NCBI RefSeq assembly: GCF_019599465.1
Contig: NZ_RKLR01000015.1
Location: 1-64,000, forward strand
Length of the DNA: 64,000 bases
Reading direction: 5' to 3'
Source: Haloarcula rubra
GTDB lineage: Archaea; Halobacteriota; Halobacteria; Halobacteriales; Haloarculaceae
Part shown: positions 42,588 through 61,698 of the stretch, piece after piece
How positions within the stretch are numbered: the stretch's first letter is position 1
Layout of the letters: each line of letters starts with the position of its first letter
Made by a program: the position numbers and the translations under genes
The notes under the pieces: generated by a model
Database searches by the model: none
The model's input: the letters and a program-made list of their open reading frames with translations, nothing else
Told to the model about the DNA's origin: nothing

Positions 42588-42826
42588 GCCGGTGTGGGCT
42601 CGGTACCGTTGTCGATTCGTCCCAATAGAAACTACATAGGCTAGAGTCTTAAATACTCGATTACTCCTCAGTGAGACAGTTACGAGAACGTACCAACGCA
42701 TACCGGAGCCAGTGGCGACCGACGAGCGGGCGCCGTTTCGTCGCCGAAATCGGCCGGTGGTCGGGTAAGCCAGAGATTATGCGTGTACGCCCGAAACCCA
42801 ACACGGTGGGCGCAGGGCCCGTCAAT

Positions 42827-46421: not shown

Positions 46422-48554
46422 ATGACGGATACAAACAAGTGCAGAAAAATAGGTCCGGTCACCCGTCGAGCGTTCACGAAGACAGTCGGTCTCGGACTGT
46501 TCGGGAGTGGAGTCGCATCGGCCGGGAACCGTTCGACGTCGACGGAACGGTGGGTCGTCGGGACTGACTCTCAGTTTGGGACAGACAGCGTGGTACAGCA
46601 GTCCGCAGCAGTAGAAAAAACCGTCGACCTCGGCGCTCTCGGGGACGCTGTCGTCGGTTATTTTGAATCCACGACTGCCTCGGCACTCGAGGGGACTGCT
46701 GGTGTGAGATACGTCGAAGAGGACGTCGACGTCGAGTTTCCCCGTTCGGGTGTCGGCACGGTCGAACAGCAGGACGGTTTCGACCCACTGGGCCAACGGA
46801 TGCCGTGGGGGTGCGAACGAATCGGGGCGTCGGGGGTCCACGGTGACGGACTGACTGGGAAGGGCATAGACGTCGCTGTCATCGATAGTGGTATCGACAG
46901 TGACCACCCCGACCTCGTATCTAACCTCGGGGACGGGTACGCAGTCACGCCCTGCGGGGACGACGAGTGCCGGTACGAGTGGGACGACGACCACTCGCAC
47001 GGGACCCACTGTGCGGGTATCGTCGGGGCACGGGACAACGCTCGCGGCGTTCTCGGCGTCGCACCCAGCGTGACACTGCACGCCGTGAAGGTGATGACTG
47101 CCCTCGGGAGCGGGTCGGGTAGTGACGTCGCGGAAGGCATCGTGTGGGCGACCGACCAGGGGTGTGACGTCGCCAACATCAGCCTCGGGTCGGAGTCACC
47201 CTCGGACATCGTTCACGACGCGGTCAAATACGCGGAACGGAACGGGATGCTCGTCGTGGCTCCGGCCGGGAACGAGGGTCCGTGTTCCGACTGCCTGCAT
47301 TACCCCGGTGCATATCCCGAGACGCTGTGTGTCGGGGCCACAGAACCCGACGACGACCTCGCAGACTACTCCTCGGTCGGCGACGCCGTCGAGATCGTGG
47401 CACCGGGCACGGACATCCTCTCGACTATCGTCGGCGGGGATTACCACGAGTTCTCCGGGACGTCGATGGCGACGCCCCACGTCGTCGGCGCCGCGGCGCT
47501 TCTCGTCGAAGCAGGGTACACGCCTGCAGAAGCGCGCGCACGACTACTGGAGACCGCCGAAGATATCGCCCTCGACGTGGACGAATCGGGTGCCGGCCTC
47601 GTGGACTGTGCCGCGGCGGCGAAGGGTAGTCTGGAACCAACAGCCGCCGTCGAGACGGGGTACGTCAAGAGTGTCGGGGACACGTCGGCGACAGTCACTG
47701 GTCGACTCACGCGATTACTCGGAACCGACAGCGTAACCGTCGGCATCGAGTACTGGCCCAGTGACGCGTCTGCGGACGCTGCGTCCCGCGAGACGGCCGG
47801 CTCGAGGTCCGAGACAGGCCGGTTCGAGGCGACGCTCTCGGACCTCGACCGGGAGTTGGAGTACCGCTACCGGGCCGTCTGTACCGGTGCCGTCAGTGCG
47901 ATCGGGTCGACGCACCGATTCACGACCGGGGAAGACCCGCCTAGTGTGACGGTCGCCACGGAGTCCGTCAGTGACGTCGGTGCTACGACTGCGAGCGTCA
48001 CGGGGAACCTGACGTCGCTGGCCGGCCGGGACGCCGTTGACGTCGGCTTCGAGTACTGGATCGACGGTGACCGCGACGCGACCCGAGAGCTAACCGACAC
48101 CGTCGAACGACAGGAGACCGGGCGGTTCAGCCGGACTATCGGCAATATCGACCCAGAGACTACGTACACCGTGCGTGCGCTGGCCGCACCTGCCCGCGGG
48201 GATGCGGTGTTCGGAGACGAGACGACGTTCACGACGGCCGACGGACTCGCCGTCATCGCTAACGCCGCCGACGACGTCGGACCCTTCGGCGCGACGTTGC
48301 GGGGCGAGGTCACCTCGCTGGGTCCGTTCGACGCGGTCGAGACCGGGTTCCGCTACTGGGAGCGTGGAGCGGGCGAGTCGTCCGTTAAAAACGTCGAGGC
48401 GGGGTCCGTAACTGCCACCGGCACCTTCGAAACGAACGTCATCGACCTGCAGAGCGGCACCGAATATCTGTACGTCGCCTACGCACGGTCCGACGGCGGC
48501 GAGACGGCCACCTCGGAACCGGTAGCGTTCTCGACCAGCGGGCAGGACTGGTAG
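46422..48554 (+). CDS. Tat-exported subtilisin-like serine protease (halolysin type) with three Fn3-like repeats
   Basis: 710 aa. Tat signal TRRAFTKTVGLGLFGSGVAS; propeptide to about residue 125; S8 catalytic domain with D155 (VAVIDSGIDSDHPD), H193 (HSHGTHCAGIVG), N284 (PAGNEGP) and S348 (FSGTSMATPHVVG). C-terminal residues ~405-705 hold three similar Fn3-like modules (SVGDTSATVTGRL, DVGATTASVTGNL, DVGPFGATLRGEV, each followed by a GxxYW strand). It differs from classical halolysins in the repeats. It is likely secreted and could process the surface proteins next to it. A GTTAC-N15-GTAAC repeat lies in its promoter (about 46377-46400). Confidence 0.9.
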   Translation: MTDTNKCRKIGPVTRRAFTKTVGLGLFGSGVASAGNRSTSTERWVVGTDSQFGTDSVVQQSAAVEKTVDLGALGDAVVGYFESTTASALEGTAGVRYVEEDVDVEFPRSGVGTVEQQDGFDPLGQRMPWGCERIGASGVHGDGLTGKGIDVAVIDSGIDSDHPDLVSNLGDGYAVTPCGDDECRYEWDDDHSHGTHCAGIVGARDNARGVLGVAPSVTLHAVKVMTALGSGSGSDVAEGIVWATDQGCDVANISLGSESPSDIVHDAVKYAERNGMLVVAPAGNEGPCSDCLHYPGAYPETLCVGATEPDDDLADYSSVGDAVEIVAPGTDILSTIVGGDYHEFSGTSMATPHVVGAAALLVEAGYTPAEARARLLETAEDIALDVDESGAGLVDCAAAAKGSLEPTAAVETGYVKSVGDTSATVTGRLTRLLGTDSVTVGIEYWPSDASADAASRETAGSRSETGRFEATLSDLDRELEYRYRAVCTGAVSAIGSTHRFTTGEDPPSVTVATESVSDVGATTASVTGNLTSLAGRDAVDVGFEYWIDGDRDATRELTDTVERQETGRFSRTIGNIDPETTYTVRALAAPARGDAVFGDETTFTTADGLAVIANAADDVGPFGATLRGEVTSLGPFDAVETGFRYWERGAGESSVKNVEAGSVTATGTFETNVIDLQSGTEYLYVAYARSDGGETATSEPVAFSTSGQDW

Positions 48555-48906
48555 ACGCCGTTCATCACAGGGGCGACAATCTTGAGGTGATGTCCGGCTG
48601 GTTTGCGACGTACCGAGAATGTGATAAGTTAACGAACGAGAGAGACGACGAGGGTTCTACACTCGCTTTCACGGCGGTCACCACGTTACCTCGTATTAAT
48701 CGGGTAATGAATCAGTCAGTTTCTCTCTAGCCAGTTCCCCGCTGTCGTTACCGAAAGCAGCGCTCGACACGGTTATACGCTAACTGGGTGTTTATACTGT
48801 GACTAATCAGTTGTCTTACCCTTATGGTGGTCTGGCCGGTACTCTCTGATGCTGTCACAGTCGGGGCCAACGACCTCCCTGTCCCGCCTGCTGTGACGAC
48901 CAACCT
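48555..48906. other. Promoter and intergenic region of acidic-repeat gene A
   Basis: 352 bp with no gene seen. It holds TTACCTCG/CGGGTAA dyads at about 48684-48708 and the TGACTAATCAGTT element (48800-48812). Confidence 0.4.
48800..48812 (+). promoter_or_regulatory. Shared 13-bp promoter element of acidic-repeat genes (gene A)
   Basis: TGACTAATCAGTT, 94 bp before the start of the 48907 gene, followed by GTCTTAC in the usual TATA position. Copies with the consensus TGAC[TC][AG][AG]TCAGTT precede genes at 50298, 52614 and 55132. Confidence 0.7.
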
Positions 48907-50124
48907 ATGAATAGCACGCTAAAGTTCGCGTTGACGATGTTCCTGGCCGTGACCGTCGCGTTCGGCATGACGATGCCGGCCGCGGCGAGTCACGGACACA
49001 CCGGGGACGCAACAGTGGCACAGAACAACAACGACGAGGTAGACATTGAAGGCGAGGATCTCGACGTCGAACACGACGGGGACGACGCTGACGTCGAGGC
49101 CGCGGACACCGAGTTCGAGACGGCAGACGACCGCGACGACGTGGACGTCGAGGCTGACGACACGGAGATAGAGCAGTCCGACGACGCCGCCGAGGTCGAA
49201 GCCGGTGACACCGACTTCGAGAGCGAGGAAGATGGTGACGAAGTCGACCTTGACGCCGACGACACCGAGGTCGAACAGGACGACGACGCCGCCGAAGTCG
49301 AGGCCGGCGACACCGACTTCGAGGCTGACGCCGGCGGTGACCTCGTCGATTTCGAGACGGAAGACTCCGACATCGAGCAGGACGGTGACACGGTCGACAT
49401 CGAAGACGACTCCGACGGTCACGGCCTCGACTTCGAGCAGTCCGGTGACGACGTCGACGTCGAACACGACGAGGCCGAAATCGAGCAGGTCGGCGGCGAC
49501 TCGGACATCGAACTCAACGGGAACGTTGATTACGAGAACGACAACGGCGACCTCGACATCGAGACCGAGGACGCCGGCGACGTGGACATCGACCTCGACG
49601 ACGGAGACTATGAGGTCGAGACTGACGAGGGTGAAATCGAAGAGAGCAACGGCGACTTAGACGTTGAGGCAGACGAGAACAACCTCGACTTCGAGAAGGA
49701 CAACGGTCGGACCGACTTCGAGGCCGACGACAACCACGACATCGAAGTCGACGGTGACGACGTCGAAGCGACGACCAACGGCGCCGACTTCGAGAACGAT
49801 GCTACCGGCATTGAGGCCGAATCGAACGACGCGGACGTCGAACTCGACGAAGACGAACTCGAAGCGGAGACGGCTGACGTCGACTTCGAGAACGACTTCG
49901 CCGGCACCGACGTGACCACGGCCGACGCCGACATCGAGCAGGACGAAGACGAACTCGAAGCGACGACGGCCGACGCGGACTTCGAGAACGACGACAACGA
50001 AGCCGAACTCACGACTGACGACGCGGACATCGAGCAGGACGACGACGAACTCGAAGTGGAAGACGACGACCACGACATCGAGAGCAACGGCGACACCGTC
50101 GAAGTCGAGAGCAACGGTCGCTAA
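48907..50124 (+). CDS. Secreted Asp/Glu-rich repeat protein A (long type)
   Basis: 405 aa. Sec-type signal LKFALTMFLAVTVAFGMTMP ending AAASHG; the rest is almost only D, E, A, G, T, V, I, F, N, Q. It is built of alternating 7- and 9-residue units such as IEQDEDELE, ATTADAD, FENDDNEAE, LTTDDAD, giving ~16-residue repeats with hydrophobic residues at even spacing. This suggests a beta-solenoid or polyanionic fibre. No Cys, no membrane anchor, no sorting motif. Closely related to C (51152) over its length, for example DGHGLDFEQSGDDVDVEHDE. Function unknown; cation binding or matrix roles are guesses. Confidence 0.8.
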   Translation: MNSTLKFALTMFLAVTVAFGMTMPAAASHGHTGDATVAQNNNDEVDIEGEDLDVEHDGDDADVEAADTEFETADDRDDVDVEADDTEIEQSDDAAEVEAGDTDFESEEDGDEVDLDADDTEVEQDDDAAEVEAGDTDFEADAGGDLVDFETEDSDIEQDGDTVDIEDDSDGHGLDFEQSGDDVDVEHDEAEIEQVGGDSDIELNGNVDYENDNGDLDIETEDAGDVDIDLDDGDYEVETDEGEIEESNGDLDVEADENNLDFEKDNGRTDFEADDNHDIEVDGDDVEATTNGADFENDATGIEAESNDADVELDEDELEAETADVDFENDFAGTDVTTADADIEQDEDELEATTADADFENDDNEAELTTDDADIEQDDDELEVEDDDHDIESNGDTVEVESNGR

Positions 50125-50136
50125 CTACCGGTACCG

Positions 50137-50155
50137 ATCGGCTTTTTATTTTTTC
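50137..50155 (+). terminator. Possible terminator of gene A
   Basis: CCGATCGG (50135-50142 region) is followed by a T-rich run CTTTTTATTTTTTC to about 50155, shortly after the stop codon at 50124. Confidence 0.4.
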
Positions 50156-50243
50156 GAACGGGTAGCGGCAACACTCGGCGTCGCTATTCGGCGAGCGGTA
50201 ACGTAGTCGGCACGGTGTAAGGTACTTACTTATTTCCGCTACA

Positions 50244-50256
50244 TGACCAATCAGTT
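50244..50256 (+). promoter_or_regulatory. Shared 13-bp promoter element (gene B)
   Basis: TGACCAATCAGTT, 41 bp before the ATG at 50298, followed by AGATTATAG as TATA box. The predicted transcript would start within about 10 nt of the ATG, so the message is nearly leaderless. Confidence 0.7.
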
Positions 50257-50297
50257 AGATTATAGTTATTACGGGGCAGCGCCTTTGTACAACTGCA

Positions 50298-50798
50298 ATG
50301 AGACAGTACCTGCGCAAAGCCAGTTCGACGATTACGGTCGCTCTGCTCGTATTTACGGCGGTGAGCGGTCTCGCAGTCGGCACAGCGAGTGCAGACCATT
50401 TCGACGGCAACGACATCGAGGTTGAGAGCGACGACAAGGACTTCGAGGTGGACGACGCCGACGACTTCGAGTACGAGGAAGACGACGAGCTAGAAATACA
50501 GGGTGAGGACATCGAGGTCGATAGCGACGACACTGACTTCGAACTCGACGGCGACGCCGATGTCGAGTACGAGATGGACGAGGAGTTCGAAGCCGAGAGC
50601 GACGACGGTCTCGAATTCGAACGTGACGACCTCGACGTCGAAATCGACGGCGACGCGGACGTCGACTACGACGACAACGGACTCGAGGCGGAGGGTGACG
50701 ATATCGACATCGAATACGGAGACCTCGACGTCGAGGTCGACGGTGACGACGTGGAAGTCGAAATCGACGACGACGGCAGAATCGAGATCGATGCCTGA
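50298..50798 (+). CDS. Secreted Asp/Glu-rich repeat protein B (short type)
   Basis: 166 aa. Signal TITVALLVFTAVSGLAVGTA with cleavage near SADHF; then a highly acidic body. The first ~35 mature residues are conserved in D and G: ADHFDGNDIEVESDDKDFEV and DDADDFEYEEDDELE. Repeats follow with IEVDSDDTDFELDGDADVEY-type units. No Lys/Arg-rich or Cys segments; no anchor. It is the short partner of A, and D and G are its paralogues. Ligand unknown. Confidence 0.8.
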   Translation: MRQYLRKASSTITVALLVFTAVSGLAVGTASADHFDGNDIEVESDDKDFEVDDADDFEYEEDDELEIQGEDIEVDSDDTDFELDGDADVEYEMDEEFEAESDDGLEFERDDLDVEIDGDADVDYDDNGLEAEGDDIDIEYGDLDVEVDGDDVEVEIDDDGRIEIDA

Positions 50799-51151
50799 AG
50801 TCCACGACCTGTTCGTGTACGAGCCACTGCCCGCTAAATAGTCACGGTTCGCGACTCGCCGCTTGGCGGGTACGTCCGCCAGCGTCGACGTCAGGCGAAC
50901 CACCCGGGTTCGACCGGGCCTTCATTTTTGTCGGCGACCAGCGCCGCCCCGCATTCCGAGTGTAACAGTATGTTCGTTAGCACAATCTGAGTGACCCGAG
51001 GGTGAGTTTCTCTCCGTACGGTTACGTACTATGGCGCATAAAATCCCATAACTAGGGCGGAATAATAACGTTATAACGGGCGGCTCCGTAGTCGGAAACG
51101 GTTGCAGTTCGCGGCTCGTTTCTGGCTGAGGGCTGTGACGACCACTGACAT

Positions 51152-52315
51152 ATGTACCGAACGATACAGACCGCACTTGTCGCGGTCCTCACGCTGACGA
51201 TGCTGGTCGGCGCGGCCGTGCCGGCCGCCGCAGACGTCGACGTAGAGAGCGACGAGTTGGAGGTCGAACACGACGGCGACGACGTCGAGGTTGAAGCCGA
51301 CGACTTCGATCTAGAGAGTGAGGACGGCCGTGACACGGTCGACGTAGAGGTAGACGACACAGAGATAGAACAGAACGGTGACGGCGCCGAGATAGAAGCC
51401 GACGAGACCGACCTCGAGGTCGAGGGCGACGGTGACGCGGTCGACCTCGAGGTGGACGAGACGGAAATAGAACAGGCTGACGACGATGCAGACGTCGAGG
51501 TCGGCGACACTGACTTCGAGAGCGCCGACGGTGGAGACCGAGTCGACGTCGAAGCTGGTGAGACCGAGATCGAACAGGACGGTGACCAAATCGACATCGA
51601 GGACGACGCTGACGGCCACGGTCTCGATTTCGAACAGGACGGTGACGATGTGGACGTCGAACACGACGAGATCGAGATCGAAGAGAGAGACGGGGACGTC
51701 GAAATCGAGGATGATACCCTCGATTACGAGGTCGACAGCGACGGGAGCGTCGATATCGAGGCAAGTGGTAGCGGCTCCATCGACATCGACCTCGACGGTG
51801 ATAACTTCGAATTCGAGAGTGACGATCACGACATCGAACAGGACAGCGACTCTCTCGACGTTGAGGCCGAGGAGAACGACCTCGACTTCGAGAAGGACGA
51901 CGACGAGACCGAATTCGAGGCTGACGACGGCCACGACATCGAGGTCGACGATGATGACCTCGACGTCGAGAGCCGCGACATCGACTTCGAGAACGACCTG
52001 TTCGGCGTCGAGGTCGAGTCCCGAGATGCCGACATCGAACAGGACGACGACGAGCTAGAGGTCGAGAGCGACGACACCGACTTCGAGAACGACTTCGCCG
52101 GACTCGACGTACTGACCGGCGACGCGGACGTCGAACTGGACGACGACGAACTCGAAGCGACGACGGCCGACGTCAACTTCGAGAACGACGAGCGTGAACT
52201 CGAAGTCGAGTCCACGTCAATCGACGTCGAACAGGACGATGATGAACTAGAAGTGGAAGACGACGACCACGACATCGAGAGCAGCGGCGACACCGTCGAT
52301 GTCGAGAGCGACTGA
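51152..52315 (+). CDS. Secreted Asp/Glu-rich repeat protein C (long type)
   Basis: 387 aa. Signal ALVAVLTLTMLVGAAVPAAA; mature part from DVDVESDELEVEHDGDD. It aligns with A along its length: DGHGLDFEQDGDDVDVEHDE, LDVEAEENDLDFEKDDDETE, and near-identical ends LEVEDDDHDIESSGDTVDVE. Its promoter has only a weak half-site (TAACTAGGGCGG, 51049-51060), 90 bp from the ATG, the spacing class of A and E. It is a duplicate of A, followed by the short-type gene D. Same fold expected. Confidence 0.8.
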   Translation: MYRTIQTALVAVLTLTMLVGAAVPAAADVDVESDELEVEHDGDDVEVEADDFDLESEDGRDTVDVEVDDTEIEQNGDGAEIEADETDLEVEGDGDAVDLEVDETEIEQADDDADVEVGDTDFESADGGDRVDVEAGETEIEQDGDQIDIEDDADGHGLDFEQDGDDVDVEHDEIEIEERDGDVEIEDDTLDYEVDSDGSVDIEASGSGSIDIDLDGDNFEFESDDHDIEQDSDSLDVEAEENDLDFEKDDDETEFEADDGHDIEVDDDDLDVESRDIDFENDLFGVEVESRDADIEQDDDELEVESDDTDFENDFAGLDVLTGDADVELDDDELEATTADVNFENDERELEVESTSIDVEQDDDELEVEDDDHDIESSGDTVDVESD

Positions 52316-52356
52316 GCCGTACTCACTCGCGACCCCGGAGAGTAACCTTCCGCGAT

Positions 52357-52366
52357 CATTTTTTGA
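52357..52366 (+). terminator. Possible T-run terminator of gene C
   Basis: ATCATTTTTTGA follows a GC-rich CCGCG segment about 45 bp after the stop codon at 52315. Weak. Confidence 0.3.
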
Positions 52367-52559
52367 CTCTCGAACTGTGGACGTAAAATACGCCTGAGCG
52401 GGAGTGACCGACGGCGCTCCGCACACTCTCCAGACACCGCACTGTCGACGTAGACGCTGTATGCAATCAAACAGTCGGATCGCTCGCTTGCACGGGCGGA
52501 CCTGAGCGGTCGGTTAGCACCCCAGTGCGGTGTTAGGTGCTAACATTATATTCAACGAG

Positions 52560-52572
52560 TGACTAGTCAGTT
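52560..52572 (+). promoter_or_regulatory. Shared 13-bp promoter element (gene D)
   Basis: TGACTAGTCAGTT, 41 bp before the ATG at 52614, exactly the spacing seen for gene B, and followed by ATCTTA. Here TGACTAGTCA is itself a perfect palindrome. The equal spacing also supports ATG 52614 as the true start. Confidence 0.75.
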
Positions 52573-52613
52573 ATCTTAGATTCATGTGGCTGTCGTGCCT
52601 TTGTCCAGATACG

Positions 52614-53114
52614 ATGCGAGAGAAATTGTTCAAGACTGCATCGATCTTCGCGGTCGGCCTGCTGGTCATCGCAGCCATCGGCGGACTGGCCGTCGGCACA
52701 GCTAGCGCAGACCACTTCGACGACACCAACGTCGACATCGACGCTCCAGACAAGGACTTCGAGGTGGACGACGCCGACGACTTCGAGTACGAGGAAGACG
52801 ACGAATTGGAGGCAGACGGTGAAGACATCGAGGTGGATAGCGACGATACCGACTTCGAACTCGACGACGACGCGGACGTCGAGTACGAGGAAGACGAGAG
52901 CTTCGACGCCGAGAGCGACGACGTCGACTTCGAACGTGACGATGTCGAGGTAGACATCGACGACGACGCGGACGTCGAGTATGAGGACGACGAACTGGAG
53001 GCCGAAGGGGACGACATCGACCTCGAAACTGACGACGGCGACATTGAGGTCGACGGTGAGGACGCCGAAATCGAGTACGACGACGACGGTGACGTCGAAA
53101 TCGATATCGGCTGA
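52614..53114 (+). CDS. Secreted Asp/Glu-rich repeat protein D (short type)
   Basis: 166 aa from ATG 52614 (an upstream ATG at 52584 would lie in front of a natural signal peptide and breaks the promoter spacing rule). Signal FAVGLLVIAAIGGLAVGTAS; mature ADHFDDTNVDIDAPDKDFEV and DDADDFEYEEDDELEADGED as in B. Ends DGEDAEIEYDDDGDVEIDIG. It is a paralogue of B and G and follows long-type gene C. Confidence 0.85.
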   Translation: MREKLFKTASIFAVGLLVIAAIGGLAVGTASADHFDDTNVDIDAPDKDFEVDDADDFEYEEDDELEADGEDIEVDSDDTDFELDDDADVEYEEDESFDAESDDVDFERDDVEVDIDDDADVEYEDDELEAEGDDIDLETDDGDIEVDGEDAEIEYDDDGDVEIDIG

Positions 53115-53115
53115 C

Positions 53116-53152
53116 GACCGATAGGCAGTTCATCGGTCACGGGTCGTTTTTT
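53116..53152 (+). terminator. Terminator after gene D
   Basis: GACCGAT (53116-53122) pairs with ATCGGTC (53132-53138), then GGGTCG and six T (53147-53152). Two bases after the stop codon at 53114. Confidence 0.6.
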
Positions 53153-53241
53153 AGCGGTGCACCCATCAGCGCGAGGTTTCGGCATTAAGAGTATTTTCGA
53201 TAACCGAACAGTCACTGCTCGGTATTCGAGTAGCCGGAACG

Positions 53242-53420
53242 GAAATCGACGAAGACGGCTTCGAGACGGAGGAGTCTGGAGGTCGAGGACGATGGGACAG
53301 TCGAGACGACACCCTTGAGATCGAAGGGGGTGCTGCCGTGGTGGTGAAGACCAGTAGCGTCGAAACCGACGAGGGCGAGGCAGAAACTGGTGGGAATCGA
53401 CGTCGAAATCACCCGACAAG
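53242..53420 (+). pseudogene. Decayed Asp/Glu-repeat gene fragment
   Basis: In frame +, the sequence reads EIDEDGFETEESGG, WDSRDDTLEIEGGAAVVV, KTSSVETDEGEAETGG, with the D/E-alternating pattern of the family but no start codon or signal. It lies between D and the Tat gene at 53536 and looks like the eroded end of a long-type copy. Confidence 0.5.
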
Positions 53421-53535
53421 GTAACCGCCCGTGCTTAGAAGTCTTCCCGGCGTGAGTCTGCATTGTTCACTAGCCTGTAATGGTGTGCTCTTCGTGCGGA
53501 ACTGTCAATAGAATTGAAACTGTAGTTATAGCTGT

Positions 53536-54123
53536 ATGAGGGCCCTGCACCAGCGACAGGGAAGCGACGAGTCGACGGATGATCCGACACGTCGACGGCT
53601 TCTCAGGGGTGTGCTCGGCGTCGCGGCTTCGACGACTGCGATATCTGTCCTGAGCGGCGTGGCGACAGCACACTTCGCAATCGAGTTGCAGGTGGATATA
53701 CAACCCGAGAATGCAGCGAACTTCGTCGACCTTGAGGCACACGATACAGTGACAGTCGCCGTGCACACCTCGACGTTCCTGAATAGCAATTGAAACCACA
53801 CGACGTTCGATCCCATAGTGAGACCCGTCCGCTATCGTTTCGGGTCAAGCTTCGCAGTTCAAAACGGTGAGGGTGCACGTCCAGTCGACACCGGAGCGGT
53901 CACGCAAGTCGACGGTGAAGAGGCGCTCGTACTGGACTTTCCGGTGAACGAAACGGATCTCGACGGCGGCGAAGAGACCGCATGGCTCTACTGGGAGCGC
54001 GACGAGTCAGGCACACACGGGTACGCTGGCGTCGATTCCGTGAGGGCCTATGGTACCCCACGTAGTTCCCGCGACCTGCTCGAACTGCTCAGACAGCTGT
54101 TACGCGACCACGTTGACGTGTAA
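53536..54123 (+). pseudogene. Tat-exported protein interrupted by one TGA
   Basis: 53536-53790 encodes a Tat signal (TRRRLLRGVLGVAASTTAIS) and the start of a secreted domain ending HTSTFLNSN. An in-frame TGA (53791-53793) is followed directly by NHTTFDPIVRPVRYRFGSSF, VDGEEALVLDFPVNETDLDG, EETAWLYWERDESGTHGYAG, ending at 54123 in the same frame with a Leu-rich tail. Total length would be 195 aa. The exact fit suggests a recent nonsense mutation, a readthrough, or a sequencing error. I do not recognise the family. Confidence 0.65.
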
Positions 54124-54360
54124 CTGCGCGCCGAGACGACGCCTGCCATGTCGGTTAAGTGACGACAGTCGCAGTCTCTATCCCCTAGCACGTCACGACA
54201 ATCGTTTCGGAACACAGTCGAGCCGTAGTCCTCGTCGCTTTCCGTGGTCATTCGCATCGGCTTACCGCTGTACAACTTCCTGTGTAACGGTAACTCGTAT
54301 CACTAAGTCGCTATCGGCACTATGTACAGGTAATCCCGAGCGAGGGAGTCCAATAGTACA

Positions 54361-54519
54361 ATGACCAAACAAATCATGTGCGACGCACCGAACTGTGACT
54401 TCGAAGTGCGGTCGGACACAGAGGAAGAACTCGTATCGGTTGTCCAGCAACACGCAGAGCAGCACCACGACGCAACCCTGTCCCGAGAAGACGCCATGGG
54501 GATGGTACGGGAAATTTGA
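54361..54519 (+). CDS. DUF1059 family small protein
   Basis: 52 aa: MTKQIMCDAPNCDFEVRSDT, EEELVSVVQQHAEQHHDATL and SREDAMGMVREI. Short Cys-bearing N-terminal strand-turn, then HAxxHH; this matches DUF1059 proteins found in many archaea and bacteria, possibly small metal-binding. It is monocistronic. ATG 54361 fits the family start. Confidence 0.75.
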   Translation: MTKQIMCDAPNCDFEVRSDTEEELVSVVQQHAEQHHDATLSREDAMGMVREI

Positions 54520-54677
54520 GGGATGCCGCACGACGCAGTACCCGTGCGGAAATCGGGTTTCCGTACCGCGACAGGGTAACCGTTCGTACTTTTTGTTTCC
54601 GCTCAGTCGTATAGTCCACCACACGGTCGCGGCTCCATCTTGAGTGTTGATTCGGTCCGGTGCCGGTACGGATACAG

Positions 54678-54944
54678 ATGGTTCGAACGACACAGTTCAC
54701 CCTGAGCGTAACGCTCACAGGGCTCGTCAGTATAACTGCACCAGCGGTATCGAACGAGGCTGAGACAGCGAACACGACCGGGAGACAGAACGGTACGACC
54801 TAGAGCGGCGTCGAAGTCGACGGTGCAGGCAGCGATGTCGAAAAGGACGACGACATTGACAGGGACAGGACGGACCTGGGCACTGATGGCGCGACCGCCG
54901 AACAGGACGACCGCACCCTTGACGTTGAGTACACGGCTGGATAG
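54678..54944 (+). pseudogene. Decayed secreted acidic protein of the repeat family
   Basis: ATG 54678 starts a signal-like segment (TTQFTLSVTLTGLVSITAPA), then TAG at 54801, then SGVEVDGAGSDVEKDDDIDR, ATAEQDDRTLDVEYTAG, ending at 54944. The acidic body and final LDVEY resemble the Asp/Glu-repeat family, but few repeats are left. With an early stop it cannot give a full protein. Confidence 0.6.
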
Positions 54945-55031
54945 AGCCACTCGGCTTGCGCTATCGTGGGGCGGTGCCCGCGACGTAACACGACCTCGGT
55001 GGCGTTACAGCGTTACCATACATACAGCGTA

Positions 55032-55044
55032 TGACTGATCAGTT
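55032..55044 (+). promoter_or_regulatory. Shared 13-bp promoter element (gene E)
   Basis: TGACTGATCAGTT, 87 bp before the ATG at 55132, followed by ATATTGG. ACTGATCAGT is a perfect 10-bp palindrome. The spacing class is the same as for gene A. Confidence 0.75.
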
Positions 55045-55131
55045 ATATTGGATTTATCCGGGCGTAGCCCCTACTTTCAGATACCACTCGACCGGACACG
55101 GCGCGGTCGTGTCCACGCTGGTGAATGAAGA

Positions 55132-55962
55132 ATGAGAGGTGCACAACTACTCACACTAACCGTACTCGTCGTAGCGGTGGCAGGGATGGCGACCCCGGCC
55201 GCCGCGGCGACGGACGGGACGACGATAGATCCGCTCGCCGACGACGGCATCGATATCGAGTTCGGCGACGGAGAAGTCGAACAGGACGACGACCAGACCG
55301 ACGTCGAGACCGACGACGTCGACTACGAACGGACCAGCGACCGGACCGAAGTAGAGACGGTCGACACCGATATCGAACAGGATGGCGACGTCACCGACGT
55401 CGAAACTGACGAGTTCGAGTACCAGCAATACAACGGGACGCTGGACTTCGACACCGCTGACGGCTCTATCGAGGTAGACATCGACGAAGGCGGCATCGAC
55501 ATCGAAGCCGGCGACAAGGAGATAGAACAAGTCGGTGACGAGTTCGAAGTCGAAGACGATGACATCGAGTTCGACAGCGACGGACAGGACGCCGACGTCG
55601 AGACCGACGAATACGACATCGAGCAGTCCGGTGACGACACCGACGTCGAATCCGATACCGTCGACTACGAACTGAGCGACGACCGGTTCGAGTTCGAGAC
55701 GGTCGAAGGAGACGACGTCAGCATCGAACTGACCGACGACGGCGATGTCGACGTCGAGGTCAACGGGCAGGACCTCGAACAGAACGGGGACAGTCTCGAG
55801 GTAACGACCGCCGACGTCGACTTCGAGGCTGACGGCGAGACAACTGACGTCGAGACGGCCGACACCGATATCGAACAGGACGACGAGACGCTCGACGCCG
55901 AAACTGACGATGTCGATGTAGAGAATGACGGCGACAGCGTCAACGTCGAACGCGCCGACTGA
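55132..55962 (+). CDS. Secreted Asp/Glu-rich repeat protein E (long type)
   Basis: 276 aa. Signal LLTLTVLVVAVAGMATPAAA; body of units such as TDVETDDVDYERTSDRTEVE, DTDIEQDGDVTDVETDEFEY and DIEAGDKEIEQVGDEFEVED. The last part, VTTADVDFEADGETTDVETA and DTDIEQDDETLDAETDDVDV, resembles the repeats of A and C. Shorter by 110-130 residues than A and C. No Cys or anchor. It completes the three long-type genes. Confidence 0.8.
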   Translation: MRGAQLLTLTVLVVAVAGMATPAAAATDGTTIDPLADDGIDIEFGDGEVEQDDDQTDVETDDVDYERTSDRTEVETVDTDIEQDGDVTDVETDEFEYQQYNGTLDFDTADGSIEVDIDEGGIDIEAGDKEIEQVGDEFEVEDDDIEFDSDGQDADVETDEYDIEQSGDDTDVESDTVDYELSDDRFEFETVEGDDVSIELTDDGDVDVEVNGQDLEQNGDSLEVTTADVDFEADGETTDVETADTDIEQDDETLDAETDDVDVENDGDSVNVERAD

Positions 55963-56229
55963 GGCCCCGTCACCGGTTCGGGACGCTGGTAGACTTATCG
56001 TGCGGAAACCCCGCCGTTTTTGCGTTCCCAACCACTGCTTGATGCACGATATTTTTGCGTCACTATCTGTCGGTGGACGTTCCACACCCAGTGGGCGTAG
56101 CCTATCAACATGGTCTGAGGTAGTTACTCATGTTGTGCCAGTAGAAGCAGCTTAGTCAGCGCTGTTTGTGTGTTTTTCTCGTCTTATCGGAGTGACACTA
56201 TGGGTGTCCAGTAAATAATAGCAACAGTA

Positions 56230-56595
56230 ATGGATTCGATAGACAAGGTCTGGTGTGATGGCGAGGAATGGTGCCCGATAACCGTGACAGCGAGTCTCCT
56301 GAGCAAGAAGTGGCACCCAGTCATCGTTTCTCGGCTCCTCGTACAAGACGAGCTCGGGTTCGCGGAGCTACAGGAACGCATCACCGACGTCTCTTCGAAG
56401 GTGCTCTCAGACGCCTTGCAGGATCTCGAGGACAAGGGCCTCGTCGAGCGGGAAATCGTCAGCGAAAAACCCTTCCGGGTCAGCTACTCACTGACAGAGC
56501 AGGGAAGATCTCTCGAACCGATCATCGACAAGATGGACGACTGGGGCACCAACTACCTAGAGACGAGTGGTGAACCACCGTCAGATATTGCCTGA
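56230..56595 (+). CDS. HxlR-family regulator with CxxxxxC N-terminal motif
   Basis: 121 aa. VWCDGEEWCPITVTASLLSK has Cys9 and Cys15; then KKWHPVIVSRLLVQDELGFA, ITDVSSKVLSDALQDLEDKG, wing FRVSYSLTEQGRSLEPIIDK. It is the closest relative of the 15059 protein in this window, sharing the W-C-x-G-E-E-W-C-P motif. It sits in the middle of the secreted-protein island, alone between E and F, and could be a redox-sensing regulator of either. Confidence 0.8.
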   Translation: MDSIDKVWCDGEEWCPITVTASLLSKKWHPVIVSRLLVQDELGFAELQERITDVSSKVLSDALQDLEDKGLVEREIVSEKPFRVSYSLTEQGRSLEPIIDKMDDWGTNYLETSGEPPSDIA

Positions 56596-56716
56596 GTCCT
56601 GTCCGGTGTGTTGGAATTTCGTCGAGGGCCGTTAACACGCGTATATCGATCGGGATCAGGAGTAATCTGTTGGTACTTATGCACTCGGTGGCCAAATCTT
56701 GAGACACATCGTATCA

Positions 56717-57361
56717 ATGGGTTCCTTATCGCGGCGGGAGTACTTAGCATCCGGTAGCGTCGGAACCGTGACACTTCTGTCCAGTTTCGGTTCACGAGCA
56801 CTCCAACGTGGGAAGGGTACTGAAACGAATACGGACGCTTCGCCGACCGACACCGGTACACCAGAAGACGGAACGGCCGACGGACGTGCGGGACAGACAG
56901 GGACTCAGAACGACGACGGACGGAATAGCTGCGAGCGGGCTTCGTTCGAACGCGACGAGGACGGCGCTATCAGTTTCGAGCGAGGGCCAGTCGAGTTCGA
57001 CTCCGACGAGGATTTTATGGCCCTTTCGAGGAGCGCTGTGCCGTTCGTTGACCTGGAGATTAGAGGGACCGATATCGACCTGTCTATCGAAACGGACGAC
57101 GAGACGCTAGAGTTAGACGTGACCGAAGACGAGACGGACCTCGAGGGGAGAGGCAACCCAGCGTCGCTCGAACGGGACGACAATGAGGTCGAGTACCGGT
57201 CGGCCGACATCGACGTCGAGTGGACCTCGGAGCGACTCGACATCGACAGGCCGGTCGACGTCGATGTCAGGAACGAGGAGTTCGAGTATCGGGACCAGCG
57301 ACTCTCTTTCGATTGGGACGCGGACCGACGTGAGTTCGAGTACACGTGTCGAGATGCGTGA
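56717..57361 (+). CDS. Tat-exported acidic protein F, relative of the repeat family
   Basis: 214 aa from ATG 56717. Tat signal SRREYLASGSVGTVTLLSSF, then a Thr/Gly/Asp linker and an acidic domain: DLEIRGTDIDLSIETDDETL, DNEVEYRSADIDVEWTSERL, DVRNEEFEYRDQRLSFDWDA. The alternating strands resemble the family above but with more Arg and one Cys near the end, and export by Tat, not Sec. Probably a diverged member. It precedes the thiolase gene by 42 bp. Confidence 0.65.
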   Translation: MGSLSRREYLASGSVGTVTLLSSFGSRALQRGKGTETNTDASPTDTGTPEDGTADGRAGQTGTQNDDGRNSCERASFERDEDGAISFERGPVEFDSDEDFMALSRSAVPFVDLEIRGTDIDLSIETDDETLELDVTEDETDLEGRGNPASLERDDNEVEYRSADIDVEWTSERLDIDRPVDVDVRNEEFEYRDQRLSFDWDADRREFEYTCRDA

Positions 57362-57403
57362 TGGGGACCGAGTATTAAGTTCGCCCGCACCGACATGTGT
57401 GCC

Positions 57404-58573
57404 ATGCAAACGGTTCGAATCGCGGGCGTCGGACTGACACACTTCGGTGTCCACCCGGAACGGACTGGTCGAGATCTGTTCGCGGAGGCAGCATTAGAGG
57501 CTATAACGGACGCCTCGGTTCCGCGAGACGACGTAGAGTGGGTCCATTACGGGAACTTCATGGCCGAACTCGCCGAACACCAGGGCCATCAGGGGCCACT
57601 GATGGCCGAGAGCGTGGGCCTCGCAGACCGCCCGGCAACTCGCCACGAGAACGCCTGTACGTCCAGCGGCGCCGCGTTCCGAGAGGCCGTCGAGACGATT
57701 CGAGCAGGGAGCGCGGACGTCGTGCTGGTCGGTGGCGCCGAGCGGATGAACAATCTCGGAACGGCGGGTGCGACGGAGGCACTCGCTATCGCGGCGGACG
57801 AACTCTTCGAGGTCCGGGCCGGCGTCACGTTCCCCGGTGCCTACGCGCTCATGGCGCGAGCGTACTTCGCAGAACACGGCGGGGACCGAGCAGATCTCGC
57901 TCACGTCGCGGTGAAGAACCACGCGAACGCCACGGTCAACGAGTACGCCCAGTTCCAGCGCGAGATATCCGTCGAAGAAGCGCTCGACGCCCCGATGATC
58001 GCTGACCCCATCGGCATGTACGACGCCTGTCCGATAACCGATGGGGCCAGCGCCGTCGTCCTGACCAGCGAGTCGTACGCACGCGAGCACGACGTCGATG
58101 CTCCCGTCGTTGTCGCTGGGTCAGGGCAGGGCGGTGACGCGCTGGCACTTCAGGACAGAGCGTCTCTCGCGAGCACGCCCGCGACCGAGCGGGCCGCCGA
58201 GACGGCGTACGACGACGCCAACATCACAGTGGACGACGTCGACCTCACCGAAGTGCACGACTGTTTCACCATCGCAGAGGTGCTGGCGATCGAGGCACTG
58301 GGCTTCTACGACGAAGGTGAGGGTATCGGCGCTGCACGGGAGGAGGAGACGACGCGAGACGGACCTCGGCCAGTCAACCTCTCTGGAGGGCTGAAAGCGA
58401 AGGGCCACCCCGTCGGTGCCACCGGTACCGGCCAACTCGTGGAGGCGACGCGGCTACTCCGCGGGGACCATCCGAACAGCGACGCCGTCCCGGACGCCAC
58501 GACGGCACTCACGCACAACGCGGGAGGGACCGTCGCCAGTGCCGTCGTTCACATCTTGGAGGTGGAGCGATGA
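57404..58573 (+). CDS. Thiolase-family acetyl-CoA acetyltransferase (SCP2-type)
   Basis: 389 aa from ATG 57404. RIAGVGLTHFGVHPERTGRD opening; nucleophile Cys in ENACTSSGAAFREAVETIRA; VGGAERMNN; then TEVHDCFTIAEVLAIEALGF and GGLKAKGHPVGATGTGQLVE with the catalytic His. The final GGTVASAVVHILE lacks the C-terminal CxG Cys, as expected for SCP2-type thiolases. The Zn-ribbon OB protein overlaps its stop (ATGA), a standard pairing; the two act together as an acyl-CoA condensing or cleaving complex. Confidence 0.85.
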   Translation: MQTVRIAGVGLTHFGVHPERTGRDLFAEAALEAITDASVPRDDVEWVHYGNFMAELAEHQGHQGPLMAESVGLADRPATRHENACTSSGAAFREAVETIRAGSADVVLVGGAERMNNLGTAGATEALAIAADELFEVRAGVTFPGAYALMARAYFAEHGGDRADLAHVAVKNHANATVNEYAQFQREISVEEALDAPMIADPIGMYDACPITDGASAVVLTSESYAREHDVDAPVVVAGSGQGGDALALQDRASLASTPATERAAETAYDDANITVDDVDLTEVHDCFTIAEVLAIEALGFYDEGEGIGAAREEETTRDGPRPVNLSGGLKAKGHPVGATGTGQLVEATRLLRGDHPNSDAVPDATTALTHNAGGTVASAVVHILEVER

Positions 58574-58959
58574 CGAGCGGCGCGCCGGTCCGTGACAGTG
58601 GCTTCGACGACTTCCTGGACGCACTCGCGGACGGAGACGGGTACTACCTGGAGTGCTCGAACGGACACGGGTCGTTCCCTCCACGCAGAGCCTGTCGAGT
58701 ATGTGGCGAGACCGACTTAGAGCAGCGCACGCTTCCCTCGAGTGGCACGGTCGAGACCTTCACGATCGTCAGAGTGCCCACACCCCAGTTCGAGGGTGAG
58801 ACGCCTTACGTGACGGCTATCACCGCGTTCGGCTCAGTCCGGCTGACGGGAATCGTTCGCGATGTCGACCCCGACAGTGTCGAACGCGGACTGACTGTCG
58901 AACCGTCTGTCGAAAGGTGGGACGACGACACTCGACGTCTGACGTTCGAACCTCGGTGA
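58570..58959 (+). CDS. DUF35 Zn-ribbon/OB-fold acyl-CoA-associated protein
   Basis: 129 aa. Zn ribbon YLECSNGHGSFPPRRACRVC with GETDLEQ; OB fold GTVETFTIVRVPTPQFEGET and LTGIVRDVDPDSVERG. In archaeal mevalonate enzymes DUF35 subunits bind CoA and link thiolase to HMG-CoA synthase. Its ATG overlaps the thiolase stop. The ribbon has only three Cys plus a His (CSNGH...C..C), typical enough for this group. Confidence 0.85.
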   Translation: MTSGAPVRDSGFDDFLDALADGDGYYLECSNGHGSFPPRRACRVCGETDLEQRTLPSSGTVETFTIVRVPTPQFEGETPYVTAITAFGSVRLTGIVRDVDPDSVERGLTVEPSVERWDDDTRRLTFEPR

Positions 58960-59088
58960 CTACCGTTCGAAGTCGGACCCTCGCTGGGGGACCCACCCAC
59001 AGTCGATACAGTTCAACAGCCCTTGGCAGTTCGCGAGCGTGGCATCACATTCAGGGCAGTCCCAGTACTCTGTCGCATCAGAGGCCAT
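58960..59088 (-). CDS. Small Cys-rich zinc-ribbon protein (42 aa)
   Basis: MASDATEYWDCPECDATLAN, CQGLLNCIDCGWVPQRGSDF, ER. CPEC and CIDC form a likely zinc ribbon with an extra Cys. The stop codon abuts the DUF35 stop. Rubredoxin-like small proteins of this kind are common in haloarchaea. Role unknown. Confidence 0.65.
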   Translation of the reverse strand: MASDATEYWDCPECDATLANCQGLLNCIDCGWVPQRGSDFER

Positions 59089-59147
59089 ACGTCATTTTCC
59101 TGCTGATCACAAATAATCGTTTTCAGTGGGTGGAGGCGATATCGTAG

Positions 59148-60827
59148 TCAGGCCGGACTGTCGTTCACCCCGGGTCGGCCGCGACCTTCGTAGAACTCGC
59201 CACCCCACTGGCCGATCCAGATATCCTGATTGGCGAGGTACAGCGCGCCTGCCGTATCGAACATCCGATCTGTCACAGACCACTCGTCGGCCCCCGTATC
59301 GTACTCGACCGAGGCGTTGTACACGGCGGCCTGCCCGAACTCGCCGCCCGCGTCCGCCGGGAGCGGCAGGGGATACTCGGCGTTCTCGCTCCGGGACGGG
59401 GGCCGCTCCGCACGCTGTAGGCGCCCCCGGTTGAACGTCTGGTTGAAGTACCGGGCGTATATCTCCTTGACGTCCATCCCGAGGACAGCGTCGGCCGCGT
59501 TGATGCCGCCCGTGATATCGCCGGCATCCTGCGCCGTGATAGCGTACGTCGAGTCGTCAGTTCCGGAGGCGAACGTGCCTGCGTCGTCGTCCCAGAGGTC
59601 TTCGACGAGGTAGCCGAGCACCGTCTCGGCCGTCCCCGTGAAGTCAACGCCGTCCATCTCGGACGCCCAGAGGAGACCCTGGCCCACGACACTCTGTGTC
59701 GCGGCCTGGTTCGCCGCGCCGTTCTGGACTACTCCGTCACTCATCAGGTTGTCTTCGACAGCACCTGCGAGACCTTCCGCGTAGGAGGCGGCCTGTGAAG
59801 CGAGGTCCTGTGATCCGGCGTGGGTACCGTACCAGCCGATGGCACCGAGCATCTGGCCGAGGTCCCTGGTAGACCCCATGTCGACGATATTCTGCGGCGA
59901 GAACAGCGACATCGTCGTCTTCGCCAGACCGTCCGTGAGGCCCTGGATCTTTTTCGGCGGAATCAGCGGCTCCGGGTTCTCGTAGCCGAACCAGCCGCCA
60001 TTCGCGAGACTGGTCATGTCCGACATGAACCACAGGAACGCCGAGTGGTGGTTCGGACGGGCCGTCGCGTCGACGACTTCGCCGGCACTCGGGTTGAACC
60101 CGGAGACGAGTTCCATACTCTCGCCCTTCGTGAGTGCCCCGTTGCCCTCGGGACCGCCCACTATCAACGTCGCATTGATACCGATTTGGGCGAGCGTCGA
60201 CAACACCATCGAACGGAACTCCGCCGCCAGACTGTCCGGGAGGAGGTCGAAGTGGTTCTCGAAGTTCTTCGCCCAGGTGACGCCCTTCAGGTGTGTCCAT
60301 CCCGCCGAGGACGGACTGACCACGCCCGACGTCTGCGATTTGTCCCACGCCAACGTCGACGCGTCCGGACGGCCGTCCTCGCCCGCGAGGACGGGTTTTT
60401 GAGTGAACGCTGGATCACCACTCGTGAAGGCGGCCATGTTCAGATTCGCGTTCTGTACAGGCGGGCGTTCCTGTCCTGCAGCCTCGAGCATCGCAGGGAA
60501 CCGCTTGTCGAACGCCTGTTGTTGCTGTTCGTTGTGCGGGAACAGCACACCGTTACCGCTCATCGAGATGTTGGTACTCATGTTGTATAGCGAGTACCAG
60601 TACGAATCCCACGTCGCGTCCGTCCAAGTGTACGCCGCCGTCTCACCTCCCTCCGTGTCCTCCCCCTCGGTGTCCTGTTCGGGCCCTGTACCATCGCCCG
60701 CCGCTTCTGTATCCGTGGGAGAGGGCGTTCCGCCCTCCTCGTCGTCTGTCCCCGTACAGCCAGCGAGTGAGACTAGTGCAGCAGCACTTCCGTACTTTAC
60801 GACGTCGCGTCTGGTATACCGAGTCAT
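59148..60827 (-). CDS. Large Tat lipoprotein of unknown function
   Basis: 559 aa. Tat signal with lipobox TRRDVVKYGSAAALVSLAGC, an acidic Thr-rich linker to about residue 65, then a large mostly helical domain: TWDSYWYSLYNMSTNISMSG, NHHSAFLWFMSDMTSLANGG, YGTHAGSQDLASQAASYAEG, ARYFNQTFNRGRLQRAERPP, ending NQDIWIGQWGGEFYEGRGRP. The Trp/Tyr-rich helices with repeated hairpins suggest an alpha/alpha barrel, perhaps a glycan-active enzyme; this is a guess. It is divergent from gene G (370 bp). Confidence 0.65.
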   Translation of the reverse strand: MTRYTRRDVVKYGSAAALVSLAGCTGTDDEEGGTPSPTDTEAAGDGTGPEQDTEGEDTEGGETAAYTWTDATWDSYWYSLYNMSTNISMSGNGVLFPHNEQQQQAFDKRFPAMLEAAGQERPPVQNANLNMAAFTSGDPAFTQKPVLAGEDGRPDASTLAWDKSQTSGVVSPSSAGWTHLKGVTWAKNFENHFDLLPDSLAAEFRSMVLSTLAQIGINATLIVGGPEGNGALTKGESMELVSGFNPSAGEVVDATARPNHHSAFLWFMSDMTSLANGGWFGYENPEPLIPPKKIQGLTDGLAKTTMSLFSPQNIVDMGSTRDLGQMLGAIGWYGTHAGSQDLASQAASYAEGLAGAVEDNLMSDGVVQNGAANQAATQSVVGQGLLWASEMDGVDFTGTAETVLGYLVEDLWDDDAGTFASGTDDSTYAITAQDAGDITGGINAADAVLGMDVKEIYARYFNQTFNRGRLQRAERPPSRSENAEYPLPLPADAGGEFGQAAVYNASVEYDTGADEWSVTDRMFDTAGALYLANQDIWIGQWGGEFYEGRGRPGVNDSPA

Positions 60828-61197
60828 AGAGAGAGGTATTTCGATCAGTCCGATGAAACCTCGCTGTTTGTGTGAGACTCTCTCGCAACTGAGATAGTTA
60901 TTTATAGGAGGTCTGGGATCTTGTGAGAACTAACGGACGTATCGTCGGCGTCTGAACGGGGGCTCTCTCGGCTCACCCGACGTATCGGTCAGTCAGACCC
61001 CGGTGGTGGCGTCTGCGTCGCTGGAACACGGTTCGAGACGTAGCTCCTGTGCATGGAGACAACCGATGTTTCGAACCGTGATGCATGGGTGCGTGCGTAA
61101 CGTGAATACCGTGCCTACTGTAGCTGAGTGTAGGTAACAGAATATAACTAGATGAGGTAACGTAACTATTCTGTTACCCGCTTACCGACCACTAACC
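60828..61197. other. Divergent promoter region between lipoprotein and acidic gene G
   Basis: 370 bp, no gene seen. It contains the 12-bp inverted repeat at 61133-61178 and repeats of GTAAC (61155-61160, 61161-61165). Confidence 0.5.
61133..61178. promoter_or_regulatory. Perfect 12-bp inverted repeat upstream of gene G
   Basis: GGTAACAGAATA (61133-61144) and TATTCTGTTACC (61167-61178) are exact complements around 22 bp that include GAGGTAACGTAAC. A weak half-site TAACTAG (61145-61151) lies inside, with the 13-bp window ending 40 bp from the ATG, the spacing class of B and D. Confidence 0.55.
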
Positions 61198-61698
61198 ATG
61201 AGATCGAAACTGTTCAGTACACTGTTGACGGTCGGCGTAAGTCTCTTGCTCGTCGTCGGGATGAGTGGACTCACCGCCGGTGTCGCGAGTGCGGACCACT
61301 TCGACGACAACGATATCGACGTAGAGAGCGACGACAAGGATTTCGAGGTCGACGACGCCGACGACTTCGAGTACGACGAGGACGATGAACTGGAGGTTGA
61401 TGGCGACGACGTTGACGTGGATAGCGACGATACGGACTTCGAGGTCGATGACGATGCCCACGTCGAGTACGAGGAAGACGAGAGCTTCGAAGCTTTCGGT
61501 GACGACGGTCTCGACTTCGAACACGACGATACCGAGTTCGACATCGACGACGACGCGCACGTCGACTACGATGACGACGACGAGTTCGAGGCTGAGGGCG
61601 ACGACATCGAATTCGAACACGACGACCACGACGTTGAGGTCGACGGTGACGACGTAGAGGTCGAGTACGACGACGGAGAGATAGAGGTCGACGGGTAA
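61198..61698 (+). CDS. Secreted Asp/Glu-rich repeat protein G (short type)
   Basis: 166 aa. Signal LLTVGVSLLLVVGMSGLTAG, then ADHFDDNDIDVESDDKDFEV and DDADDFEYDEDDELEVDGDD as in B and D. Body of acidic repeats with His additions (DAHVEYEEDESFEAFGDDGL, HDDHDVEVDGDDVEVEYDDG). Its promoter differs: a perfect 12-bp inverted repeat in place of TGAC-N3-TCAGTT. It lies 5 kb from the nearest other member and has no long-type partner on its left. Confidence 0.8.
   Translation: MRSKLFSTLLTVGVSLLLVVGMSGLTAGVASADHFDDNDIDVESDDKDFEVDDADDFEYDEDDELEVDGDDVDVDSDDTDFEVDDDAHVEYEEDESFEAFGDDGLDFEHDDTEFDIDDDAHVDYDDDDEFEAEGDDIEFEHDDHDVEVDGDDVEVEYDDGEIEVDG

Follow-up and report, generated by a model that had tools for sequence, protein, structure and literature searches.

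What are the strongly acidic, repetitive proteins encoded between positions 48907 and 61698 of a 64,000-nucleotide stretch of Haloarcula rubra DNA (contig NZ_RKLR01000015.1, positions 1 to 64,000; hereafter the window), and what might they do for the cell? A sequence-only reading of the window had claimed six open reading frames (ORFs), A, B, C, D, E and G, as a secreted repeat family of at least six members. Each of the six is present at its coordinates, and the family is larger, with a seventh member, gene F, that had been overlooked. We tentatively favor the view, to which we give somewhat less than even weight, that A–G are one co-regulated set of exported amphipathic β-sheet proteins that build a polyanionic, hydrated coat or matrix. 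The genes are as follows.

48907-50124, + strand: gene A, long Sec-type acidic β-repeat protein, 405 residues, net charge about -168
50298-50798, + strand: gene B, short Sec-type acidic β-repeat protein, 166 residues; probably leaderless
51152-52315, + strand: gene C, long Sec-type acidic β-repeat protein, 387 residues; modeled with about 42 strands
52614-53114, + strand: gene D, short Sec-type acidic β-repeat protein, 166 residues; probably leaderless from 52614
55132-55962, + strand: gene E, long Sec-type acidic β-repeat protein, 276 residues
56717-57361, + strand: gene F, 214 residues, Tat-type signal (SRREYL), of a subfamily with a C-terminal W...FE.xR motif
61198-61698, + strand: gene G, short Sec-type acidic β-repeat protein, 166 residues

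Sequence pattern and relatives of the repeat proteins

A Sec-type signal peptide begins each of A, B, C, D, E and G, as had been proposed. The Cys-free bodies and the absence of a membrane anchor hold as well; the only Cys belongs to the added gene F, and none of A–G has a C-terminal hydrophobic segment. In the six mature Sec-type proteins Asp and Glu account for 43–58% of residues and Lys and Arg for 1–2%, with a net negative charge of about 41–54 per 100 residues. Gene F is 35% acidic, with a net negative charge of 20 per 100 residues.

The arrangement of these residues is as marked as their abundance. In the six Sec-type proteins, 75–95% of the neighbors of hydrophobic residues are Asp or Glu, whereas the same measure in 32 other ORFs of the window has a mean of 18% and a maximum of 29%. 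Conversely, hydrophobic residues adjoin one another in 0–2.4% of cases, as against 28% in the other ORFs. The alternation of hydrophobic and acidic residues is not chance, and the neighbor counts bear out its original description. It is present in all members and also when averaged over 49 relatives. Spacings between hydrophobic residues have maxima at 7, 9 and 16 residues, and the 16-residue period (7 + 9) reaches z values of 6.0 in A and 8.6 in C, the highest. The acidic and hydrophobic repeat stands; its description as units of 7–9 residues is better replaced by about eight residues per strand and 16 per strand pair.

ORFs on the reverse strand overlap the repeat genes. The coding strand is nevertheless the + strand, on the evidence of the signal peptides, the conserved relatives in other genomes, the upstream promoter modules and the substitution pattern. 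A and C are 62–63% identical, and the pairs A–C, B–D, B–G and D–G have nonsynonymous rates (dN) of 0.18–0.25 and synonymous rates (dS) of 0.79–1.11. The dN/dS among paralogues, 0.17–0.37, indicates purifying selection, and hence that the proteins are maintained and are not low-complexity noise.

No window member has a match above cut-off in Pfam or NCBIfam, and no significant match was found among PDB sequences. Scans of the whole family gave weak and inconsistent results, in keeping with the earlier remark that no named family has this pattern. Matches to LptA, UrcA, YabP, DUF1934 and Glyco_hydro_65C were rejected, being below cut-off and different between members. Three subfamilies can be distinguished: a long Sec type (A, C and E) with a conserved C-terminus, for example DDGFDVESDGEDVEVE; a short Sec type (B, D and G), whose relatives adjoin long ones in loci L113 and L115; and a Tat type (F and its like) with the C-terminal end W...FEARR. 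Profile–profile scores among the three are 89–97%. Reversed-profile controls also score high (96% for A1–A6, 88% for A1–A5 and 49% for a third pair), so part of the signal between subfamilies is the alternation pattern itself. Judging from these profiles, common ancestry of the three is likely but not proven.

Relatives were sought in samples of 146 genomes of the same family, 391 of the class and 393 of the phylum. Among the 146, C has relatives in seven genomes and G in seven, the window's own included. Of the 391, 11 genomes match the Sec-type profile (A1) and 10 the Tat-type profile (A2). This count across Halobacteria, a check that had been suggested earlier, describes a patchy family found in about 4% of the genomes sampled. 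One relative lies in Halomarina halobia (NZ_CP119992). Outside Halobacteria, the 393 phylum genomes yielded no F-type relatives, the only F-type match being the window's own. No relatives were found in the plasmid collection or, with queries other than the F-type alignment, in the viral contigs. Tandem arrays of 3–10 paralogues are common and occur in several genera, with seven genes in the window, nine in L111, six in L112, four in L115 and three each in L113 and L114. The eight to nine tandem F-type Tat paralogues of L111 (7763-16433) and L112 (2786-11820), from two related genomes, are an expansion that is uncommon among exported archaeal proteins. Proteins of the Halomarina group at L048 10203-10886 and L050 8784-9494 contain an internally duplicated block (FDYENDD...) and have diverged from the main subfamilies.

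Predicted fold of the repeats

An AlphaFold2 model of C was built from a shallow alignment of five sequences. Its mean predicted local distance difference test score (pLDDT) is 67 and its predicted template-modeling score (pTM) 0.35, with pLDDT values of 75–84 across most of the last 150 residues. The model contains 42 strands, mostly of six residues followed by a two-residue D/G turn, and strand starts are spaced exactly eight residues apart in 28 of 41 cases. When faces are assigned by residue parity along the modeled strands, one is composed mainly of V32, I16, L15, A11, F10, T9, S7 and Q7, with acidic residues at 2 of about 119 positions (about 2%). The other holds E61 and D44, so that 105 of about 123 positions (about 85%) are acidic. 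The proteins are thus predicted to form long β-sheets with one hydrophobic or neutral face and, on the other, a carpet of Asp and Glu; the modeled sheet of C, with its roughly 42 strands, would measure roughly 20 nm if fully extended. The model of the short member G was poor (pLDDT 58) and is left out of the claims about fold.

The Foldseek search of an AlphaFold model that the sequence-only reading had suggested was run on C, together with VIA-align 2. The closest solved folds are freestanding antiparallel meanders, with VIA Z scores of 12.5 for the CPAP TCP domain, 10.8 for MORN and 10.3 for OspA, at root-mean-square deviations of 4–8 Å and for a model with the pTM given above. Amphipathic strands of ApoB are also among the structural matches. 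With moderate confidence, AlphaFold2 favors a freestanding antiparallel meander of eight residues per strand over a β-solenoid.

The two-strand-per-turn β-solenoid proposed at first is unsupported by this model, itself of moderate quality. In that alternative the proteins would be closed solenoids with a 16-residue coil of two strands, hydrophobic residues inside and acids outside, and the resulting soluble rods would have a role in spacing, in ligand binding or in a matrix. The 16-residue period and the single hydrophobic face suit such a coil equally well, and the coil would hide that face without needing a partner; the antiparallel order of the modeled strands, the meanders among the top structural matches and the two-residue DD/DG turns typical of hairpins tell against it. 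We consider the solenoid unlikely, yet the strongest of the competing explanations. Since one face of the C model is hydrophobic, the sheet is on physical grounds unlikely to exist as a free monomer.

Promoter module and neighboring genes

The sequence-only reading had overlooked the promoter, the regulators and the partner gene described below. A shared element, first spotted by eye in the upstream regions, precedes four of the genes. It is a 26-bp module, TGACYRRTCAGTTRNMTTANMTTTAT, with one mismatch at each site.

48800-48825, + strand: promoter module before A, one mismatch
50244-50269, + strand: promoter module before B, one mismatch
52560-52585, + strand: promoter module before D, one mismatch
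55032-55057, + strand: promoter module before E, one mismatch; includes the perfect palindrome ACTGATCAGT

The core of the module is a near-palindrome, and its end is a TATA-like TTTAT; in B, the TATA-like box lies about 30 nt upstream of the gene. This position places the expected transcription start close to the start codons (ATG) of B and D, as in leaderless genes, and supports 52614 as the start of D. The 19-bp core TGACYRRTCAGTTRNMTTR matches exactly before A, B, D and E, against 0.05 matches expected in the window at up to two mismatches, a figure that overstates the surprise because the core was derived from those same four sites. Elsewhere in the 4,667,063-base genome it does not occur at up to one mismatch. 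Outside this genome, TGACYRRTCAGTTRNMTTANMTTTAT precedes a relative in G262 (no mismatches) and in G389 (one mismatch), both genomes of another family, and shuffled controls gave such matches in 0 of 200 trials. Over all loci, the core occurs within 250 bp upstream, at up to two mismatches, of 12 of 67 repeat genes and 3 of 321 other ORFs (Fisher p 9e-8, with the pattern derived from 4 of the 12 genes and the relatives not independent). Exact copies of a 14-bp core elsewhere in G114 and G389 lie mostly within ORFs and were judged to be chance. Other upstream words are enriched in the F-type arrays; these support no conclusion, as the arrays are recent tandem copies.

Four neighboring genes recur, or have relatives, near repeat genes in other genomes.

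40414-41211, + strand: winged-helix regulator of the FilR1/HVO_A0261 type, with conserved counterparts beside repeat genes of G262, G389 and G114
41646-42581, - strand: partner protein of about 311 residues, with close orthologues near repeat genes
46422-48554, + strand: exported subtilase that has Fn3-like repeats and directly precedes A
56230-56595, + strand: HxlR-family regulator, directly upstream of F

The relatives of the FilR1-type regulator in those three genomes have a near-identical recognition region, and we infer that it is a candidate reader of the promoter module. The partner protein has matches in 9 of the 391 class genomes. For the five best (above 180 bits, in G000, G262, G389, G114 and G273), Sec-type repeats lie within 7 kb in every case; the others are weaker (32–33%), and some are in genomes without repeats. 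Searches found no fold or family for the partner. Its stretch LVTMLDEFID ... LVFDDIRDVRQDVHNGVQTPVVWLL is reminiscent of Asp-rich motifs in isoprenyl diphosphate synthases, a resemblance that no database match confirms. HxlR genes within 5 kb of repeat genes number 12 in eight genomes, at least one in each of the eight, against 0.36 expected, in related loci that were themselves found via the repeats, as holds for all our enrichment tests. The window holds 5 of the 15 HxlR genes of the genome (at 4281, 15059, 27458, 38298 and 56230), and PAS/GAF sensors (15438, 33119 and 36728) are interspersed among them. Relatives of the subtilase lie beside repeat genes in loci L046 and L114; one in G114 is 41% identical, and another is in G273.

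Further genes of the window were noted in passing. The product of 29787-30749 is helical and exported and contains an Asp-rich linker; relatives of it adjoin repeat genes in L113 (33% identity) and, more weakly, in L115, so that it may belong to the same system. At 42779-45730 lies a 983-residue surface protein whose domains are DUF7827, BGTF-like and DUF7282 and which partly resembles an ArtA-dependent S-layer glycoprotein; it has a weak NCBIfam surface-glycoprotein match and groups with a neighbor of the repeat gene in L057. Between F and G, on the - strand at 59148-60827, is a 559-residue exported protein with a twin-Arg-like motif and a lipobox (SLAGCTG), for which no family match was found. 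Transposase-like ORFs at the left edge (1-920) probably belong to an insertion sequence close to where the 65-kb contig ends.

Proposed role and comparison with known systems

At the level of sequence, the export signals, the strict alternation at about eight residues per strand, the lack of an anchor, the conservation of the family, the conserved neighboring regulators and the module shared by four genes are established. A role can be sketched from these. In molar salt, a sheet with a greasy face would be unlikely to persist as a free monomer. It might fold closed, as a solenoid or sandwich; it might bind a paralogue through the hydrophobic faces; or it might cover a hydrophobic surface such as lipid, an S-layer patch, a polymer or the air–water interface. 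The acidic face would then bind hydrated K+, Na+, Mg2+ or Ca2+, so that a polyanionic coat or matrix that retains water would cover the cell. Paralogues that differ slightly and are produced at the same time could build a layer from mixed partners. The FilR1-type regulator would perhaps switch the coat on upon some signal, a part that HxlR regulators would take for the F-type genes.

Several observations weigh against the coat or matrix. Part of the high acidity is common to halophiles in general, and the extracellular location of A–G is deduced from signal peptides only. The model of C is no better than moderate and that of G is poor. No module precedes C, F or G, and no relative was found to have an experimental or annotated function. 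Furthermore, the CPAP TCP domain, the nearest fold, is monomeric without self-association (PMC3776556), though both its faces are hydrated, unlike those of the repeat proteins.

Three further explanations fare less well than the solenoid. The proteins could be Ca2+-dependent differentiation or aggregation proteins, as has been suggested for secreted aspartate-rich repeat proteins of hypha- and spore-forming haloarchaea. The D/G-rich turns of the C model would suit this. RTX calcium-binding β-rolls are likewise secreted and acidic, with D/G-rich turns and two short strands per about 16–18 residues. However, the GGxGxDxUx nonapeptide of RTX proteins is absent from the repeat consensus, and no HemolysinCabind or other Pfam calcium-binding match was found (window proteins to E 1; A1 and A5 members to E 0.1). 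We regard a Ca2+-dependent role as improbable.

Slightly more improbable still is that they are envelope-stress sensors or decoys akin to Toastrack (DUF4097/LiaG) domains, signaling membrane damage to the nearby HxlR, FilR1 and PAS/GAF regulators. Regulators do cluster beside the genes, both groups are exported β-repeats, and 3 of 18 F-type members match DUF4097 in Pfam (best 1.7e-5, one of about 75 residues), and LiaG matches weakly. Homology was nevertheless rejected, as the hhalign probability against haloarchaeal DUF4097 is 15.9% for the F type and 1.6% for the Sec type, near the reversed-sequence control (reversed and shuffled sequences served as controls), whereas the subfamilies score far higher with each other. 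The Toastrack repeat is NG-based and occurs in another context, and neither a membrane anchor nor PspC/LiaF neighbors were seen here. Finally, that the adjacent subtilase frees fragments active against competitors is highly improbable: a haloarchaeal protease-precursor antagonism does exist (PMC12893001), and the subtilase adjoins A here and has relatives near repeat genes in two other loci, but the known system acts via α-helical N-termini, the repeat proteins are β-rich and polyanionic, and most other arrays have no subtilase nearby.

Little is known of the extracellular materials of haloarchaea other than S-layers, pili and glycans. We think it rather doubtful, though worth stating, that the locus represents an undescribed class of archaeal extracellular material, in which polyanionic two-faced β-sheets, encoded in arrays of several paralogues that have a promoter module, a regulator and a partner protein of their own, make a cation-holding coat or matrix. 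The family itself is defined, lies outside Pfam and NCBIfam, and has an unusually clean two-faced β design, a recognizable promoter and few partner genes; the promoter and the short list of partners make its role testable by deletion. If they form as predicted, long exposed β-sheets of this kind would be rare in nature, soluble thanks to very high salt, and of interest as a design template for salt-stable materials.

Among known surface proteins, A–G lack the C-terminal hydrophobic segment and the NCBIfam surface-glycoprotein match of the S-layer/PGF-CTERM type, and Pfam gives no match to curlin for the window proteins at E values of up to 1. BslA, chaplins and hydrophobins are small secreted amphipathic coat proteins, β-structured and multi-paralogue, with a hydrophobic face. 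The analogy with them would be functional, with no sequence relation, and the second face here is almost wholly acidic. The CPAP/SAS-4 TCP (G-box) domain is, like the modeled C, a freestanding single-layer antiparallel β-meander with short turns. It is exposed and hydrated on both sides (PMC3776556), is a eukaryotic centriole protein with Pro/Gly turns and has no sequence homology to the repeat proteins, which are exported and predicted to have one hydrophobic and one acidic face. Borrelia OspA, with its single-layer sheet, and the engineered PSAMs share with the modeled C the exposed single-layer geometry and repeated hairpins (Z about 10), though OspA is a lipoprotein with globular caps, not a polyanionic repeat, and is unrelated in sequence. 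Gains or duplications of secreted aspartate-rich repeat proteins are reported for haloarchaea that form hyphae and spores, a clade grouped with Halomarina oriensis (PMC10067837), which is an independent hint of the importance of such proteins. They are alike in being secreted, Asp-rich, repetitive and duplicated, in a clade related to Halomarina, and the material proposed here may be the same as these proteins of differentiating haloarchaea.

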